Assembly: GCA_019637805.1 (NCBI GenBank)
Contig: JAHBVB010000001.1
Coordinates: 509,875 to 573,874, forward strand
Reading direction: 5' to 3'
From: Anaerolineales bacterium
GTDB taxonomy: Bacteria > Chloroflexota > Anaerolineae > Anaerolineales > UBA11579
Length of the DNA stretch: 64,000 bases
In this document: one piece after another, positions 3,956-10,964 of the stretch
Numbering within the stretch: position 1 is the stretch's first letter
Layout: every line of letters starts with the position of its first letter
Notes under the pieces: generated by a model
Told to the model about the DNA's origin: nothing
The model's input: the letters and a program-made list of their open reading frames with translations, nothing else
The model's database searches: none
Translations under genes and position numbers: made by a program

Positions 3956-4798
3956 CTAGGCGGCCGCGTTGTGCGCGCCGGGTCGTCTCAGCAACCAGAC
4001 CAGGACAAAGATCAGGGTGCAGGTCAGCACAATGGCGGCCCCGGAAGCCACATTGAAGTAAAAGGAGATGTATAAACCCAGGAAGCCGCTGCCCGCCGCG
4101 ATCAGGGCGGCCAGCAGCATCATCCGCGGCAGGCTTTTGGTCAGCAGCATAGCAGTGGCCGCCGGGGTAACCAGCATGGCAGCCACCAAGGCCACGCCCA
4201 CAGTTTGCAGCGAAGCCACAATCGCCACCGCCGTCAGCAGGGAGAGCAGGATTTCGAGAAAGCGAGCGGGCAGCCGCAGGGTGGTGGCCAGCTGGGCGTC
4301 AAACGCCAGCACCAGGAATTCTTTATAAAAGGCCCACACCAGCAAGAGCACAACCGCCCCTACAGTAAAGGTCAGCCCAATATCCTGATTGGTGATCCCC
4401 AGAATATTGCCGAAAAGGAAATGTGAAAGATCCACCGCATAACTGCGCGCCGTGGAGATCAGCGCCACACCCAGCGCAAACATGCCGGCAAAAACAATGC
4501 CGATGGCGGTGTCCTGCTTCAAACGGCCGTCCCGGCTGAGGGCGCCAATGCCCAGGGAGCTCACCACTGCGGCGGCCAGTGCCCACCAGAACAGGGCGCC
4601 GCGCTGCCCGCCGCTGACCAGGTAACCCAGGGCCATGCCAGGCAGAATGGTGTGGGCCAGCGCATCGCCCAGAAAGGCCATGCCGCGCAATACGATGTAG
4701 CAGCCCACCACGGCGCAGATCACGCCGACCAGGCTGGCGGCCAGCAGCCCGCGCTGCATGAAGTCAAAGGCCAGCGGTTCCAGCAGCCAATCAAACAT
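3956..4798 (-). CDS. znuB: Zinc/manganese ABC transporter permease (ZnuB-like)
   Basis: A 280-residue inner-membrane permease with about eight or nine hydrophobic segments, of the ABC-3 metal permease family. The segments MAFLGDALAHTILPGMALGYL and AVAIVASLQTVGVALVAAMLVTPAATAML are the most characteristic. The start at 4798 (MFDWLLEP) overlaps the end of the ATPase gene by 8 nt (ATGTTTGA), a translationally coupled arrangement; a longer frame from 4870 would run through the ATPase gene and is rejected. It forms the membrane channel that moves Zn2+ delivered by the binding protein encoded two genes upstream. Mn specificity cannot be excluded from sequence alone, but the partner protein carries zinc-type His-rich loops. 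Confidence 0.9.
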   Translation of the reverse strand: MFDWLLEPLAFDFMQRGLLAASLVGVICAVVGCYIVLRGMAFLGDALAHTILPGMALGYLVSGGQRGALFWWALAAAVVSSLGIGALSRDGRLKQDTAIGIVFAGMFALGVALISTARSYAVDLSHFLFGNILGITNQDIGLTFTVGAVVLLLVWAFYKEFLVLAFDAQLATTLRLPARFLEILLSLLTAVAIVASLQTVGVALVAAMLVTPAATAMLLTKSLPRMMLLAALIAAGSGFLGLYISFYFNVASGAAIVLTCTLIFVLVWLLRRPGAHNAAA

Positions 4799-5612
4799 GG
4801 GTGTGACCCCCGCTGTCGCCCAGCAACAGGCGTCCGTCTTTGGTCTCGATCGCCTGCATATGGCCGCCATAGGCCGCGGTCAAATGCTCGCCGCTGAGGA
4901 CTTGCTCCGGCGGCCCGTAAGCCACCAGCCGGCGGTTGAGCAACAGAATGCGGTCAAAGTGTTCTGCGGCCAGCCCCAGGTCATGCGTGGCAAAAAGCAC
5001 GCTGATGCTCAGAGCGCGCAGTTCGTCCAAAATATTCACAATTTGTTCCTGCGAGGGGATATCCAACCCGGCCAGTGGTTCGTCCAGCAGCAGCAGATCG
5101 GCGCCCTGGGCCAGGGCGCGGGCGATGAACATGCGCTGGCGCTGGCCGCCGGACAGCTGGCCGATCTGGCGCTGGGCCAAACCAGTCAGCCCCACGCGGG
5201 CCAGGCTCTCATCCACCAGTCGCCGGTCCTCCGCGCCCGGCCAGCGCAGCAGGCCCAGGTGCCCGCTGCGACCCATCATGACCACATCTCGCACGCTGAC
5301 CGGGAAGGTCCAGTCCACCTGGCTGCTTTGCGGCACATAAGCCAGGCAGTGGTGCTGGGCCGGGGCGTGCCCATAAATGCGCACCTGGCCGGCGCTGGGC
5401 AGCAGCAGGCCCGCCAGGACATTGAACAAAGTCGATTTGCCCGCCCCATTGGGGCCAACCACGGCCACGCGCAACCCAGGCTCCACCTGCAGCGAAACGT
5501 CCTCCAGCGCCAAGTGCCCGTCAAAACGCACGCTCAGCTTGCGCAGATCGACGGCCACCGAGCGCTGGCCATGTGTATGGGCAGGGCTTGGATTGAAAAT
5601 ACTTTTCAACAT
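4791..5612 (-). CDS. znuC: Zinc ABC transporter ATP-binding protein (ZnuC-like)
   Basis: A 273-residue ABC ATPase. Walker A is GPNGAGKST, the Q-loop is in YVPQSSQVDWTFP, the signature is LSGGQRQR, Walker B is LLLLDEP and the switch His is in ATHD. The YVPQ..QVDWTFPVSV motif is typical of metal-uptake ATPases of the ZnuC/MntB class. The N-terminus has an unusual 20-residue extension before the ATPase core (SPAHTHGQRS). The C-terminus ends GGHTHV, a small His cluster of possible metal interest. The gene overlaps znuB and follows znuA after an 79-nt gap containing a strong hairpin. Confidence 0.92.
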   Translation of the reverse strand: MLKSIFNPSPAHTHGQRSVAVDLRKLSVRFDGHLALEDVSLQVEPGLRVAVVGPNGAGKSTLFNVLAGLLLPSAGQVRIYGHAPAQHHCLAYVPQSSQVDWTFPVSVRDVVMMGRSGHLGLLRWPGAEDRRLVDESLARVGLTGLAQRQIGQLSGGQRQRMFIARALAQGADLLLLDEPLAGLDIPSQEQIVNILDELRALSISVLFATHDLGLAAEHFDRILLLNRRLVAYGPPEQVLSGEHLTAAYGGHMQAIETKDGRLLLGDSGGHTHV

Positions 5613-5691: not shown

Positions 5692-7326
5692 CTACTTGAG
5701 CGCTTGGGCGATGGCACTAACGTTGTAGCGCATCATATCCAGATAGCTGGCGGCGGGGCCATCCGCCGCGCTAAGCGCTTCGGTGTACAAGGTCACCAGT
5801 TGCACGCCGGTGTCTGCCGCCACGCTCTGGGCCAAGCCCGGCGTGATGCTGAAGCCGATGAAGATCACATCGACCTCGTGGTCTGCGATGGCGGTTTGCA
5901 GCGCAGCCAGCTCACCGGCGGAAGGCTCGCTGAGCGTGCTGAGGCTGGGAATCAGTGCACCGATGACTTCAAAGTCGTAGCGAGCGGCAAAGTAGCCCAG
6001 GGTCTCGTGATCGGTCACCAGCACGCGCCGCTCATGATCGATGCCCGCCAGCTGTTCGGCGGCCCAGCTGTCCAGCGCATCCAGCTCGGCCTTGTAGGCC
6101 TCGGCATTGGCTTGGTAGCTGGCCGCGTGGGCCGGATCAGCCGCGCTGAGCGCTGCGGCCACATTGTCCGCCCAGACCTTCACATTTTGGGGATTCATCC
6201 AGGCGTGCGGGTCGGGGCCTTCGTGCTCATGGTCATGGCCGGCTTCCTCTTCGTGCTCATGCTCATGGCCTTCTTCGTCTTCGTGCTCATGGTCATGACC
6301 GCCTGTGGCCCCAGCCAGTGCGGCTTGTTCTTCTTCAGTCATTGCGGCTTCAATGCCATTGACACCAGCAATGTAGACACCAATCAATCTGGCGCTGGCA
6401 ACCCACATATTCACCAGTGCCTGGACATCGGTTCCTGCGGGGTACAAAGCAGGCACCCAGACGCCGCTTGATTCGGCAATCTCTTCAGGGCTGGTACTGC
6501 CATAAATCATATGGAAATGCAAACTTGCCTCTGCTTCGACTGCATGCGGCGGACTCAGGAGCAAGTAACGGTATTCATCACAGTCGTGATCGCCAGTTTC
6601 GAAGACTGACCAAACTTCACCCTCTACTTGAAGTACAGGCGTCGTGCCGGTGTAGGCATAGTCGCAAGCGATGCTTCCTGTTTCTGAGGTGAAGGTCACA
6701 GTCTCGGCCTCAACCAAAAAAGTATCGAAACTGGTTGTGTAGCCTTCGTCAAGAAAAGCGCGCACCACATCTTCGTTACTCAATTCCGGTGTGGAAGCGA
6801 TGATCGCGTCATAGGCAGGCTGGAAAGCATCCGGGTCGTAAGCCGAAGTACTGATCCAATCACCTCCCCATAAACTTAAGTCGCTGACATCGCCATGATC
6901 GTGGTCGTGACCGTGCTCTTCGCCTTCATGCTCATGGTCATGATCTTCGTCATGATGGTCATGCTCATCAAATTCCAGGGCGTGAATGCCTTCTGAGGCA
7001 TACACTACCTTATCGCCCTGCGCATCCAACAGCGCTTGCAGCGATTCTTCCAAACCAAAACCATTGGCCACCACCACGTCAGCAGAGGCCAAAGCGGCCG
7101 CATCCTGTGGGGTCGGTTCAAAAGAGTGCGGGTCCGCCCCCGCCGGGATCAAGACGTTGACGGCGATGTGCTCGCCACCCACCTGGGCGACTACGTCACC
7201 GACAATACCGGTGGTTGCCACCACCTGCAATTTGCCGGTCTCTGCGGCTGGGGTTCCCGCACAGGCGGACAACAACAAAGCACCGGCCACAAAAAGAACA
7301 AATCCTGCTTGCTTATGAAACTTCAC
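5692..7326 (-). CDS. znuA: Zinc-binding lipoprotein: ZnuA with a ZinT domain nested in its His-rich loop
   Basis: A 544-residue zinc-capturing lipoprotein (lipobox LLSA-C22). The ZnuA half is split: residues 31-115 hold the first lobe with zinc ligand H67 in DPHSFEPTP, and residues 371-544 hold DPHAWMNP (H374), TDHETLGYF (H440) and the last lobe. Between them are a His/Asp/Glu-rich stretch at 117-145, a ZinT/YodA-like domain at about 148-312, and a second His-rich stretch at 344-369. ZinT features include DLSLWGGDW at its start and LHFHMIYGSTSPEEI with the HFH zinc ligands. The start is GTG 7326, preceded by TGGAGG at 8 nt spacing. Known AdcA proteins carry ZinT at the C-terminus; here it is inserted inside ZnuA. 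The upstream promoter carries a Zur-like palindrome. Confidence 0.93.
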   Translation of the reverse strand: MKFHKQAGFVLFVAGALLLSACAGTPAAETGKLQVVATTGIVGDVVAQVGGEHIAVNVLIPAGADPHSFEPTPQDAAALASADVVVANGFGLEESLQALLDAQGDKVVYASEGIHALEFDEHDHHDEDHDHEHEGEEHGHDHDHGDVSDLSLWGGDWISTSAYDPDAFQPAYDAIIASTPELSNEDVVRAFLDEGYTTSFDTFLVEAETVTFTSETGSIACDYAYTGTTPVLQVEGEVWSVFETGDHDCDEYRYLLLSPPHAVEAEASLHFHMIYGSTSPEEIAESSGVWVPALYPAGTDVQALVNMWVASARLIGVYIAGVNGIEAAMTEEEQAALAGATGGHDHEHEDEEGHEHEHEEEAGHDHEHEGPDPHAWMNPQNVKVWADNVAAALSAADPAHAASYQANAEAYKAELDALDSWAAEQLAGIDHERRVLVTDHETLGYFAARYDFEVIGALIPSLSTLSEPSAGELAALQTAIADHEVDVIFIGFSITPGLAQSVAADTGVQLVTLYTEALSAADGPAASYLDMMRYNVSAIAQALK

Positions 7327-7347: not shown

Positions 7348-7362
7348 TGAAAATCATTTTCA
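7348..7362. promoter_or_regulatory. Fur/Zur-type 7-1-7 operator of the znu operon
   Basis: Perfect palindrome TGAAAAT-C-ATTTTCA. It overlaps the last base of the -10 box and the expected transcription start of znuA, so bound regulator would block initiation. The 7-1-7 geometry is that of Fur-family boxes; the adjacent fur-family gene is the probable regulator. Zinc as the effector is inferred from the genes. Confidence 0.75.
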
Positions 7363-7389
7363 TTATAATGAGACAAAAAAATATGTCAA
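7362..7389 (-). promoter_or_regulatory. Consensus promoter of znuA
   Basis: On the minus strand TTGACA (7384-7389), 16-nt spacer, TATAAT (7362-7367). Both hexamers match the sigma-70-type consensus perfectly. The -35 lies in a second inverted repeat, TGTCAAG-5 nt-CTTGACA (7384-7402), which runs into the end of the fur-family gene. Confidence 0.85.
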
Positions 7390-7390
7390 G

Positions 7391-7852
7391 CTAGACTTGA
7401 CATTGAGTACACACTCCAAAGAACTGCAGCCAGTGCTCGTGGATGCGGAAACCACTCTGCTTCTCCAGGTTGCGGGTGAAGTCCTTCAAGTCATCCCCCT
7501 CGAACATCTCCACCCGGCCGCAGTTCTCGCACACCAGCATGTGGTTGTGCCCATCCTGGGCGGAGATGTAGGCATGGCACCCGCCCGGCCCGTGCACGCG
7601 CTGCACCAGGCCCAACTCCTCCAGCTTCTCCAGCGTGCGATACACCGAAACCAGGCCCAGCCCTTTGTGCTTGGCGCGCCCGATCTCGTAGAGGTCCGCG
7701 GCGGTCAATGAACGTTCAGCCTGCGCCAAAGCATCCACCACTGCGCGGCGCGAGCCGGTGATCCGGTAGCCCTGCTGCTGCAAATAGCGCAGCCACAAAC
7801 GGCTTTTTTCAGCCGGGCTTTGTTCGGTGACAATCTGCGGATGGGTCATCAT
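7391..7852 (-). CDS. Fur-family metalloregulator, probable Zur
   Basis: A 153-residue winged-helix repressor. The DNA-recognition region is TGSRRAVVDAL...ADLYEIGRAKHKGLGLVSVYRTLEKLEELGLV. Two CxxC pairs (CENC and CTQC) provide the structural zinc site, and the HNHMLVCENCGRVEMFEGDDL region supplies the regulatory site residues. Its place directly before znuA, whose promoter has a Fur-family box, suggests it is Zur rather than Fur or PerR; this is inference. Start is ATG 7852 or 7849 (the track of in-frame codons begins with TTG 7855). A TATAAT (7858-7863, minus strand) sits 5 nt before ATG 7852 and no Shine-Dalgarno sequence is visible, so it could be leaderless or read through from upstream genes. 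Confidence 0.9.
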   Translation of the reverse strand: MMTHPQIVTEQSPAEKSRLWLRYLQQQGYRITGSRRAVVDALAQAERSLTAADLYEIGRAKHKGLGLVSVYRTLEKLEELGLVQRVHGPGGCHAYISAQDGHNHMLVCENCGRVEMFEGDDLKDFTRNLEKQSGFRIHEHWLQFFGVCTQCQV

Positions 7853-7867
7853 CAAAAATTATAACGC

Positions 7868-9229
7868 TTAGGGCAACCAGGCCGGGGCACTGGCGTCGCG
7901 CACCAGCAAACGCGTTGTCCCGCTTGAGCGATCCCAGACCCACACTTCGGGCACGGGGTTGCCCACGCCCAGTTGCATGCGGTGATACAGCAGATACCGC
8001 GATTGTGGATCCCAACTCAGGTCAGAGAAGAGCGAGGCCTCTGTCTCGGCAGCTGTCAGGGCAAAGCGCCCATCTGCGGGGGTGACCCAGACCTGGTCAG
8101 CCGGGCCTCCATCCGCCGGGCGCACGCGCAGCGCCACCCACTCGCCCGAAGGCGAGAGGGTTGGCATGCTGTAATCCCCATCAGCGGGCTGGGGCTCAAA
8201 GAACGGCAGGATATCCTCGGTGGAAAAATCCGCCCGGAAGATGGTGTAGAGCGCCAGACCATCCGCCAGCTTGGTGTCGTAATACAGCATCTGGTCGCCG
8301 TCCGGCATCCAGCTGCCCACCACCCCGACGCGCGACGGCAGATAGATCTCCTGCCCGCTGAGCATGTCCACCACCACAATGCGGTTCTGCACGCCATCGT
8401 AATAAGCCAAACGGCCCGCTTCCGGCGACCAGCTGGGGCCATAGCCGATCTTCTGCGTGTCGGCATGCAGGCGCACGCTTTGGCCCGTGGCCGGTTCCAG
8501 CAACCAGATGCGCGGGGCGCCGTAGCCCTCGCCGGGATTCAGCGGGCCGGGCGCCCGGCTGTAGGCCACGCGCCCGTCCGCAGACCAATCGGGTGCATAG
8601 CAGCGGTCCAGGCCGCAATTGAGCACCATGCGGTTGTCTTCGCCTTGGCGGCCCACCAGCCACAGGTCGATCCCGGCCTGCTCGTTAAAGGCCGAGTAAA
8701 GGATCTGCTGCCCGTCCACAGAAACGGCGAAATCGAAGACATCCCCTGCCATATCAGTGACTTGGCGCGGGGAGCCTTCCAGATCCGTCAAGGTCCACAG
8801 CTCCGCCCCCTGGTCTGAGCTGCGCATAAAGGCCATGCCGGGCGAACGCGTGGTGAAGGACCAACTCAGCTCTTCGGCCAGGACGTGCCCCAAATAGGTG
8901 CTGGCCCCGGATGCGAGGCGCACTGTATAGGTTTGGCCTTCTGCGAATGCCTGCTCAGGCAGGAAGTACAGCGTGTTGTCGCGCCAGATGAAGCGGCCGG
9001 CTGTCTGCGGCTGCAGGCTGAAACGGCTTTCCACGCTGGCGGCATCCATCGCCTCACCGAAGGTGATGGCGACCGGCGCGGAGGCGGCCGCCGCGGCCCC
9101 ATCCAGCGGTGAGACGGCCAGCACGCTGACACCCACCTGGTCACCACGCCACAGCACCAGGCCCAGGGCGGCCAGCAGAAACAGAGACAGCGCGCCAACC
9201 GCTATATCCAGGCGACTAAAACGGTTCAT
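7868..9229 (-). CDS. Membrane-anchored Ig-like plus TolB-type beta-propeller protein
   Basis: A 453-residue protein with an N-terminal anchor (residues 9-29). Residues about 38-132 form an SbsA-type Ig-like (Big_5) domain: SPLDGAAAAASAPVAITFGEAMD...LSWSFTTR. The rest is a six- or seven-bladed PD40/TolB-like propeller with repeated DFAVSVDGQQILYS, APDWSADGRVAYS, GPSWSPEAGRLAYY, PTLSPSGEWVALR and DLSWDPQSRYLLY blades. It probably binds a protein or polymer outside the membrane. It overlaps the TIGR03943 gene by 4 nt and ends 15 nt before the Fur-family gene, so it is within the predicted metal operon, but no metal-binding cluster is visible in it. Ligand unknown. Confidence 0.75.
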   Translation of the reverse strand: MNRFSRLDIAVGALSLFLLAALGLVLWRGDQVGVSVLAVSPLDGAAAAASAPVAITFGEAMDAASVESRFSLQPQTAGRFIWRDNTLYFLPEQAFAEGQTYTVRLASGASTYLGHVLAEELSWSFTTRSPGMAFMRSSDQGAELWTLTDLEGSPRQVTDMAGDVFDFAVSVDGQQILYSAFNEQAGIDLWLVGRQGEDNRMVLNCGLDRCYAPDWSADGRVAYSRAPGPLNPGEGYGAPRIWLLEPATGQSVRLHADTQKIGYGPSWSPEAGRLAYYDGVQNRIVVVDMLSGQEIYLPSRVGVVGSWMPDGDQMLYYDTKLADGLALYTIFRADFSTEDILPFFEPQPADGDYSMPTLSPSGEWVALRVRPADGGPADQVWVTPADGRFALTAAETEASLFSDLSWDPQSRYLLYHRMQLGVGNPVPEVWVWDRSSGTTRLLVRDASAPAWLP

Positions 9230-9945
9230 GGGAACAAATACGGTTGCGGCGGCACGGGCACTTCTTTGATGCTGGCGGCCTCGATCACCGGATAGGGCCG
9301 GCCGTCAAACTGGCCCACCGCCACCTGACCGCTGATGTGCACCCAGGCGTTGCTGGGCCAATCGGCGGCCTGGGGAGTGCGCACGATCACGCCCACCGCA
9401 AAAGCGTCGGCCACACAGCAGGTCACCGCAAAGCGCCCCACCATGAATTCATCCGCGCCCAGACGATCATCGTGATAAACGAAGCCGATCACATCAGCCG
9501 GTTCTCCCGTATAGATAGAGGGATCACTGGCGAAGTTAAAAGTGCGCACCCAGTCCAGCACACTGCGCTGGTCGGAGGGCAAACTCAATTCCACATTCGA
9601 CCAGGCGCCGCCCCCCAGGCCCGTGTTGGTGGTCAGGCCGCGCGTATCCAAAGCAGAGCTGTCCAGCGGCCGGTCTGGCACCAGAAAACCGAACAGCAGC
9701 GGCACGGCCACGATCAAGACTGTCCAATTGCTGGCATGGCTGTGCCCAGGCGCCGCCTGGCGCAACAGGTTACGCAGAGCCGCCAGCCCCAGCAAGACAA
9801 ACCCGGCCCCACCGAACAGCACCAGCCAGGTGAAGCGGTCGCTGATATAGAAATACAGCGTGCCGGAGAAAGTTTTGTAGAGCAGGTAAATACCCAGCCC
9901 CAGCAGCATGACAATTTTGAGTACGGCGTAGCGGCGTGCAGTCAT
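9226..9945 (-). CDS. TIGR03943 family membrane protein (partner of DUF318 permease)
   Basis: A 239-residue protein with four N-terminal hydrophobic segments, a short His-containing loop (GHSHAS), and a C-terminal soluble domain with the family motif FMVGRFAVTCCVADA and a final VHISGQVAVGQFDG strand region. It is the YcgQ-type family that is nearly always encoded next to a COG0701 permease, as here. The pair's substrate is not established; in several bacteria the pair appears among zinc-responsive genes, which fits the Zur/znu neighbours. It starts 2 nt after the permease stop and overlaps the propeller gene by ATGA, so all three are translationally coupled. Confidence 0.85.
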   Translation of the reverse strand: MTARRYAVLKIVMLLGLGIYLLYKTFSGTLYFYISDRFTWLVLFGGAGFVLLGLAALRNLLRQAAPGHSHASNWTVLIVAVPLLFGFLVPDRPLDSSALDTRGLTTNTGLGGGAWSNVELSLPSDQRSVLDWVRTFNFASDPSIYTGEPADVIGFVYHDDRLGADEFMVGRFAVTCCVADAFAVGVIVRTPQAADWPSNAWVHISGQVAVGQFDGRPYPVIEAASIKEVPVPPQPYLFP

Positions 9946-9947
9946 GG

Positions 9948-10964
9948 CTAGATCCCTATATTGAGATTGATGAAAACGCTGGCCAGCAAAACAAACAAGA
10001 ACACCAACCAGACAATGTACAAGACAGTCTTGCGCTGAAAGACTTGCAGATAAAGCATCACGCTCTTGATGTCCACCATGGGACCGAAGACCAGGAAAGA
10101 GAGGATCGAGCCGCTGGTGAAGCTGCCCACGAAAGCCAGCGAGACAAAAGCATCCACCGTGGAACAGATCGAGAGCAGAACGGCCAAAGCCATCATCACC
10201 AGCACAGAAAGCAGCGGGCCGGAACCTACCGCCAGCAAAGCCGTCTGCGGCACCACGGTTTGCAGCAGCGCGGCGAGCAGCGAACCGGCGATCAGGTAAC
10301 GACCCATCTCGAAGAATTCATCGCCGGCGATGACCAGGGCGCGCTGGATACGCGGCCCCAAGCCCGGCGCAGCCGGGGCGATGTGGGGATGGTCCACACT
10401 GGCGCCGCTGATCTGGATCAGCGGCATGGGCTTCAACAACTGGGCCGGGCGCGGCTGCAAGGCGAACACCAGGCCCACCGCCACGGCAATAAACAGGCTG
10501 AGGCCAATGCGCCAAAACAAGACCGGCCCCCAGCCATAGGCCGCGTAGGTACTGGCCACCACGATCGGGTTGATCACCGGGGAAGCCAGCAAAAAGGCAA
10601 TGCCGGTGGCCGGCGCCAGACCTTTGCTGAAAAAGCGCCTGGTCAGCGGGATGACACCGCACTCACATACCGGGAAAATGAAGCCCAGCAAACCGCCCGC
10701 CACTGCCCCCAGCAGGGCATTCTTGGGCATCAGCCTTTGGATCGCATCCCGGTCAAGAAAGACCTCCACAAAACCGGAGGCCAGGGTGCCCATCAGCAAA
10801 AAGGGCGCTGCTTCAATGAAAATCCCCAGAAAAATGGTGGAGAGCGTATAAAACTGATCCGGGAGGGTAAAACCCGCCACCGCCCAATTTTGGACACCAA
10901 GAAAGGCCGCCAGCAGCAAGAGCGCCAACCCCAGCAAACCCAGAATATTGAAAACCTTGTTCAT
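9948..10964 (-). CDS. Predicted permease of the DUF318/COG0701 family
   Basis: A 338-residue integral membrane protein with about eight to ten hydrophobic segments. The diagnostic motifs are FPVCECGVIPLTRRFF (Cys-Glu-Cys) and LLASPVINPIVV. It begins the predicted operon permease-TIGR03943-propeller-Fur. The CEC motif in a membrane helix border is compatible with metal handling, but the transported species is unknown. The ATG at 10964 has no Shine-Dalgarno sequence; a TACAAT box (10972-10977) lies 7 nt upstream, so the transcript is probably leaderless. Confidence 0.85.
   Translation of the reverse strand: MNKVFNILGLLGLALLLLAAFLGVQNWAVAGFTLPDQFYTLSTIFLGIFIEAAPFLLMGTLASGFVEVFLDRDAIQRLMPKNALLGAVAGGLLGFIFPVCECGVIPLTRRFFSKGLAPATGIAFLLASPVINPIVVASTYAAYGWGPVLFWRIGLSLFIAVAVGLVFALQPRPAQLLKPMPLIQISGASVDHPHIAPAAPGLGPRIQRALVIAGDEFFEMGRYLIAGSLLAALLQTVVPQTALLAVGSGPLLSVLVMMALAVLLSICSTVDAFVSLAFVGSFTSGSILSFLVFGPMVDIKSVMLYLQVFQRKTVLYIVWLVFLFVLLASVFINLNIGI

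Follow-up and report, generated by a model that had tools for sequence, protein, structure and literature searches.

A ZinT domain nested in the His-rich loop of a ZnuA-type zinc receptor from an Anaerolineales bacterium

A zinc receptor in which a ZinT domain lies inside the His-rich loop of ZnuA was identified in Anaerolineales bacterium GCA_019637805.1. The nested protein is real and unites the elements ZinT, His loop and ZnuA in a single chain. It was found in a window of 64 kb (the whole stretch of DNA analysed, positions 509,875-573,874 of the forward strand of contig JAHBVB010000001.1), and all coordinates of the source genome given below without a contig are counted within this window. 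We consider it likely that the protein is the substrate-binding lipoprotein (ZnuA) of a zinc ABC importer, with a His-rich loop enlarged to a first arm, the ZinT domain and a second arm.

Domain architecture and metal ligands

The nested gene (5692..7326, minus strand) begins with a GTG start codon and encodes a lipoprotein of 544 aa with the lipobox LLLSAC. Its parts, all on the minus strand, are ZnuA lobe 1 (aa 31-116, with the ligand H67; 6979..7236), the His/Asp/Glu arm 1 (aa 117-146; 6889..6978), an insert consisting of the ZinT domain and a tail (aa 147-343, tail 306-343; 6298..6888), the His/Asp/Glu arm 2 (aa 344-370; 6217..6297) and ZnuA lobe 2 (aa 371-544, with the ligands H374, H440 and E516; 5695..6216). 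Arm 1 contains 10 His and 15 Asp/Glu among its 30 residues, and arm 2 contains 9 His and 14 Asp/Glu among its 27 residues.

Two stretches of the protein matched the Pfam profile PF01297 (ZnuA; E 1.6e-85, 287 bits, cut-off 29), and the second of them (aa 339-542) extends to the end of the profile. Between them, PF09223 (ZinT) matched aa 149-305 (E 2.1e-14, 54 bits, cut-off 27), and this match covers positions 19-175 of the 181 in the profile. When the insert alone was compared with solved structures by phmmer, it matched Salmonella ZinT (4arh, 7e-11) and AdcA in its ZinT domain (7jja, 3e-9). The profile and structure matches bear out the initial annotation, in which the region 148-312 had been taken for ZinT, nested in the metal-binding loop of ZnuA and flanked by two His/Asp/Glu linkers (here aa 117-146 and 344-370, respectively); its domain boundaries differ by no more than a few residues from the profile mapping. 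For the insert, aa 147-343 are the best limits, since a long extra tail (306-343), which is probably helical, comes after the ZinT fold.

ZnuA of the congener G409 aligns with the nested protein end to end, the ZinT segment excepted, and the insertion is therefore no alignment artefact. In this alignment, arm 1 corresponds to the beginning of the His-repeat loop of G409 ZnuA. The reading frame is intact, and the insertion is located exactly between the His repeats. Judged from its sequence, the nested protein is probably functional.

Two complete sets of metal ligands are present in the chain. All the four ZnuA ligands (H67, H374, H440 and E516) are retained, and H440, at the third position, is a zinc-type ligand that is likewise found in the AztC and AdcA sequences. 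All the three ZinT ligands (H261, H270 and H272) are also present, with spacings of 9 and 2, which are equal to those of H468/H477/H479 in the ZinT domain of S. aureus AdcA (PMC8878332). The ZinT domain has diverged strongly, with 26-30% identity to each of the ZinTs compared, and stands on a very long branch of the ZinT tree, and the insert is strongly acidic (net charge -29) with no Lys. Because of this divergence and composition, ZinT function was judged only from the ligands and from the ZinT core motifs, which are conserved within an open frame of 197 codons. The full-length AlphaFold model (pLDDT 56, below 50 in the ZinT part) is too weak for geometry; a model of the ZinT domain gave the order of strands and helices expected for a lipocalin-like fold, but with a mean pLDDT of 41 it is too weak as well.

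Related proteins and the proposed working of the receptor

The nested protein belongs to the AdcA/ZnuA-ZinT kind but is not an AdcA by architecture. Like AdcA of streptococci and staphylococci (PDB 7jj9), it is one lipoprotein with a ZnuA-type lobe pair, a His-rich loop, ZinT and the same ligands. In AdcA, however, ZinT is placed C-terminally to ZnuA through an 11-residue linker (PMC7858048), whereas in the nested protein it is placed inside the His loop, with lobe 2 after it. The NCBIfam model of AdcA scored 163 bits against a cut-off of 700, and the best NCBIfam match to the lobes was AztC, below its cut-off. In E. coli and Salmonella, ZinT (YodA) and ZnuA of ZnuABC also cooperate, with the His-rich loop implicated, but they are separate proteins encoded by separate genes and not one chain. 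The contrast drawn initially with the C-terminal ZinT of AdcA and the separate ZinT of E. coli accordingly holds. A further likeness is offered by AztC/AztD, in which the accessory protein AztD passes zinc to the receptor AztC and needs the flexible loop of the receptor; AztD is, however, a separate beta-propeller protein unrelated to ZinT, whereas the accessory part here is a ZinT in the same chain.

The same nesting was found in a plasmid record of Subdoligranulum variabile (OY725857.1; L038, 2048-3565), which belongs to Bacillota (gut Clostridia) and not to Chloroflexota. The encoded protein of 505 aa carries ZinT (138-324) inside ZnuA, in the same order of lobe 1, His stretch, ZinT, short His stretch and lobe 2, and its gene likewise has a Fur-family gene upstream and ATPase and permease genes downstream. 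Its ZinT scored 117 bits against the Pfam profile, compared with 54 bits for the source insert, and has a His/Glu insert of its own, unlike the source ZinT. The two proteins are 25% identical over nearly their full length, and the two nested ZinT domains are 29% identical, no more than the source insert is to stand-alone ZinTs. Because of this low identity and a ZinT tree that, owing to the very long branch of the insert, does not resolve the two domains, an independent origin of the two nested forms is possible. No paper describing ZinT nested in ZnuA was found in open-access text. It may be put forward tentatively, at somewhat less than even weight, that the placing of ZinT within the loop of ZnuA, as an architecture not yet described, has arisen more than once (in Chloroflexota and in Clostridia), with nesting as an intramolecular relay that replaces a transient hand-over; on this reading, nesting would have originated repeatedly because the ZnuA loop is the docking place of ZinT.

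In the proposed mechanism, zinc shortage would cause the Fur-family regulator to release the promoter, zinc would be captured at the cell surface by the ZinT site (H261/H270/H272) together with the arms, the arms would pass it to the ZnuA site (H67/H374/H440/E516), and ZnuA would deliver it to the permease for import. The hand-over from arm to ZnuA is proposed because arm 2 ends four residues before H374. The nested protein would thus, with good probability, work like AdcA but be differently wired, ZinT loading the ZnuA site through the arms. Zinc could plausibly pass straight along the His arms, in keeping with the published models of ZinT/ZnuA and AdcA. The ZinT-ZnuA interface of AdcA includes the base of the His loop, zinc uptake under restriction suffers when the loop and the ZinT domain are lost together, and zinc transfer through the loop was put forward as a stated speculation (PMC7858048). 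In Salmonella, the ZnuA loop was put into the ZinT cleft by SAXS modelling (PMC6689063), and either ZinT or the ZnuA loop is needed (PMC3842936).

The ZinT insert might instead be a passive, local zinc buffer which raises zinc near ZnuA, with no directed transfer via the arms. This alternative, which we regard as unlikely, draws on the finding that the ZnuA domain of AdcA alone suffices for import while the accessory parts aid recruitment only (PMC7858048), for which reason ZinT may add little in the nested protein, and on the fact that the interaction of ZinT with ZnuA is established but metal transfer from the one to the other has not been demonstrated (PMC6689063). Nevertheless, to serve as a buffer ZinT would not have to lie between two His arms in the very loop for which entry into the ZinT cleft has been proposed, and the ZinT of Subdoligranulum is placed likewise. 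A natural protein with ZinT in the loop fixes the connection and so offers a single molecule for measuring transfer, in which the proposed hand-over would be easy to test, and the G409 protein, with similar lobes and no ZinT, is a natural control.

Origin and distribution of the ZinT insert

In G409, znuA is found in the same locus (L043/L005) with the same gene order and promoter as in the source genome, but its loop consists of EFDEHDHHDEDHDHEHEGEE, a tandem His repeat and HDHEHEGPDPHAW, with no ZinT, whereas the loop of the source genome holds ZinT. The orthologous locus is also present in G402, without ZinT. The GC content of the insert is 52.5% and its GC3 is 51%, compared with 64.4 ± 2.9% and 77.5 ± 7.5%, respectively, in a background of 276 coding windows of the same length, all taken from the 64-kb window; the GC3 of the insert is below that of every one of them (276/276). 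The insert is foreign in composition, and the ZinT module probably originated outside the genus, as far as can be judged from its sequence.

This foreign composition, the very long branch with low identity and the presence of the insert in only one genome of the Chloroflexota samples could also be read as signs of a decaying or neutral foreign passenger, lodged in a tolerant loop and no longer binding zinc. An open frame of 197 codons with 3/3 zinc-binding His retained and conserved ZinT core motifs makes such a passenger quite improbable.

Compared with G409, the flanking genes and the promoter are 93-97% identical in nucleotide sequence, as against 79-83% for the two lobes; at the protein level, identity is 99% for the Fur-family regulator, 96% for the ATPase, 97% for the permease, 86% for lobe 1 and 79% for lobe 2. 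In a sliding comparison to G409, identity fell to about 80% from about 7358 to about 5767, a stretch confined to znuA, in which the surroundings of the DPHAW motif are better conserved. Since the lobes differ from G409 and the flanks little, the znuA allele was most likely replaced in one of the two species, either the source species or G409; alternatively, only znuA has diverged fast. The nested receptor was probably gained recently, and the ZinT module probably arrived, or became fixed, via znuA allele exchange at the native locus. The nested znuA allele may have travelled as a unit, and the His-codon repeats flanking the insert could have served as natural recombination sites. Insertion of ZinT into a znuA that otherwise stayed the same was rejected, as divergence from G409 is far greater in the lobes than in the flanks.

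Acquisition by transfer, in this lineage, of an entire nested gene of Clostridia type would be compatible with the proposed function, and Subdoligranulum has the same nested order and loop. Such a transfer is very improbable, however: the lobes are closest to those of G409 (79-86% protein identity) while overall identity to the Subdoligranulum protein is 25%, and the 29% identity between the two ZinTs is no higher than that to stand-alone ZinTs. An assembly or binning chimera is scarcely credible, since the insertion is in frame and exactly within a protein loop, lies well inside a long contig, between flanks of conserved synteny, and recurs as the same fusion in Subdoligranulum, even though the genome is probably a metagenome assembly (5 contigs, 95% complete) and the composition changes abruptly at the insert.

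PF09223 was matched in 1/400 genomes of the phylum, 1/400 of the order and 1/24 of the family (the samples overlap), and the match was always the source genome; no other Chloroflexota genome in those samples gave a ZinT match in the profile search. ZnuA is common among the relatives (88/101 match). The arrangement had been called unusual in the initial annotation, which stands for the Chloroflexota samples searched, where only the source genome carries ZinT, but the arrangement is not unique, the Subdoligranulum plasmid record being nested as well. Contig scans for the ZinT insert and for the Subdoligranulum ZinT found none, which is weak evidence because each query consisted of six exact 8-residue patterns. 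Among viral contigs, only stand-alone ZinTs of proteobacterial type and one distant ZnuA were found, and no nested protein. In the plasmid searches, the ZinT nearest to the insert was 25-28% identical, and the annotated plasmid records matching either ZinT query were nearly all stand-alone ZinTs, together with one AdcA and one nested protein (L038). In Clostridia, proteins of this nested kind may well be common.

The zinc locus and its putative regulation

The nested gene is followed downstream by a ZnuC-type ABC ATPase (4791..5612) and a ZnuB-type permease of the ABC-3 family (3956..4870), and preceded upstream by a Fur-family regulator with CENC and CTQC pairs (7391..7855), all on the minus strand; the regulator is a probable Zur. 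A sigma-70-type promoter (TTGACA-16-TATAAT, 12/12; 7362..7389, minus strand) is located directly upstream of a Zur-like 7-1-7 palindrome, TGAAAATCATTTTCA (7348..7362), which comes directly after the perfect -10. The box is identical and in the same place in G409 and G402, and near copies of it are present upstream of znuA in most other congeners. Palindromes of the seven-one-seven form have been described for Zur boxes (PMC6103462). The nested receptor is probably Zur-controlled.

A second Zur-like palindrome with one mismatch, TGAAAATACTTTTCA, is located at 5594-5608, over the start of the ATPase gene, and boxes resembling it were found at L043 4395 and L044 4280. A DUF1980 protein and an ArsP_1-family permease (9226..10964, minus strand) adjoin the zinc locus, are conserved with it in G409 and may belong to the zinc regulon. 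In several congeners (L049, L050 and L052-L055), no genes for the ATPase and permease were found at distances up to about 4 kb from znuA, and a Zur-like box is still present near znuA. A second metal ABC transporter is encoded in the same genome (L045; G000:C2:343500-349500), with a loop-less receptor, its own transporter genes, a cation diffusion facilitator and a DtxR/MntR-like regulator; this transporter is probably for manganese or mixed metals.
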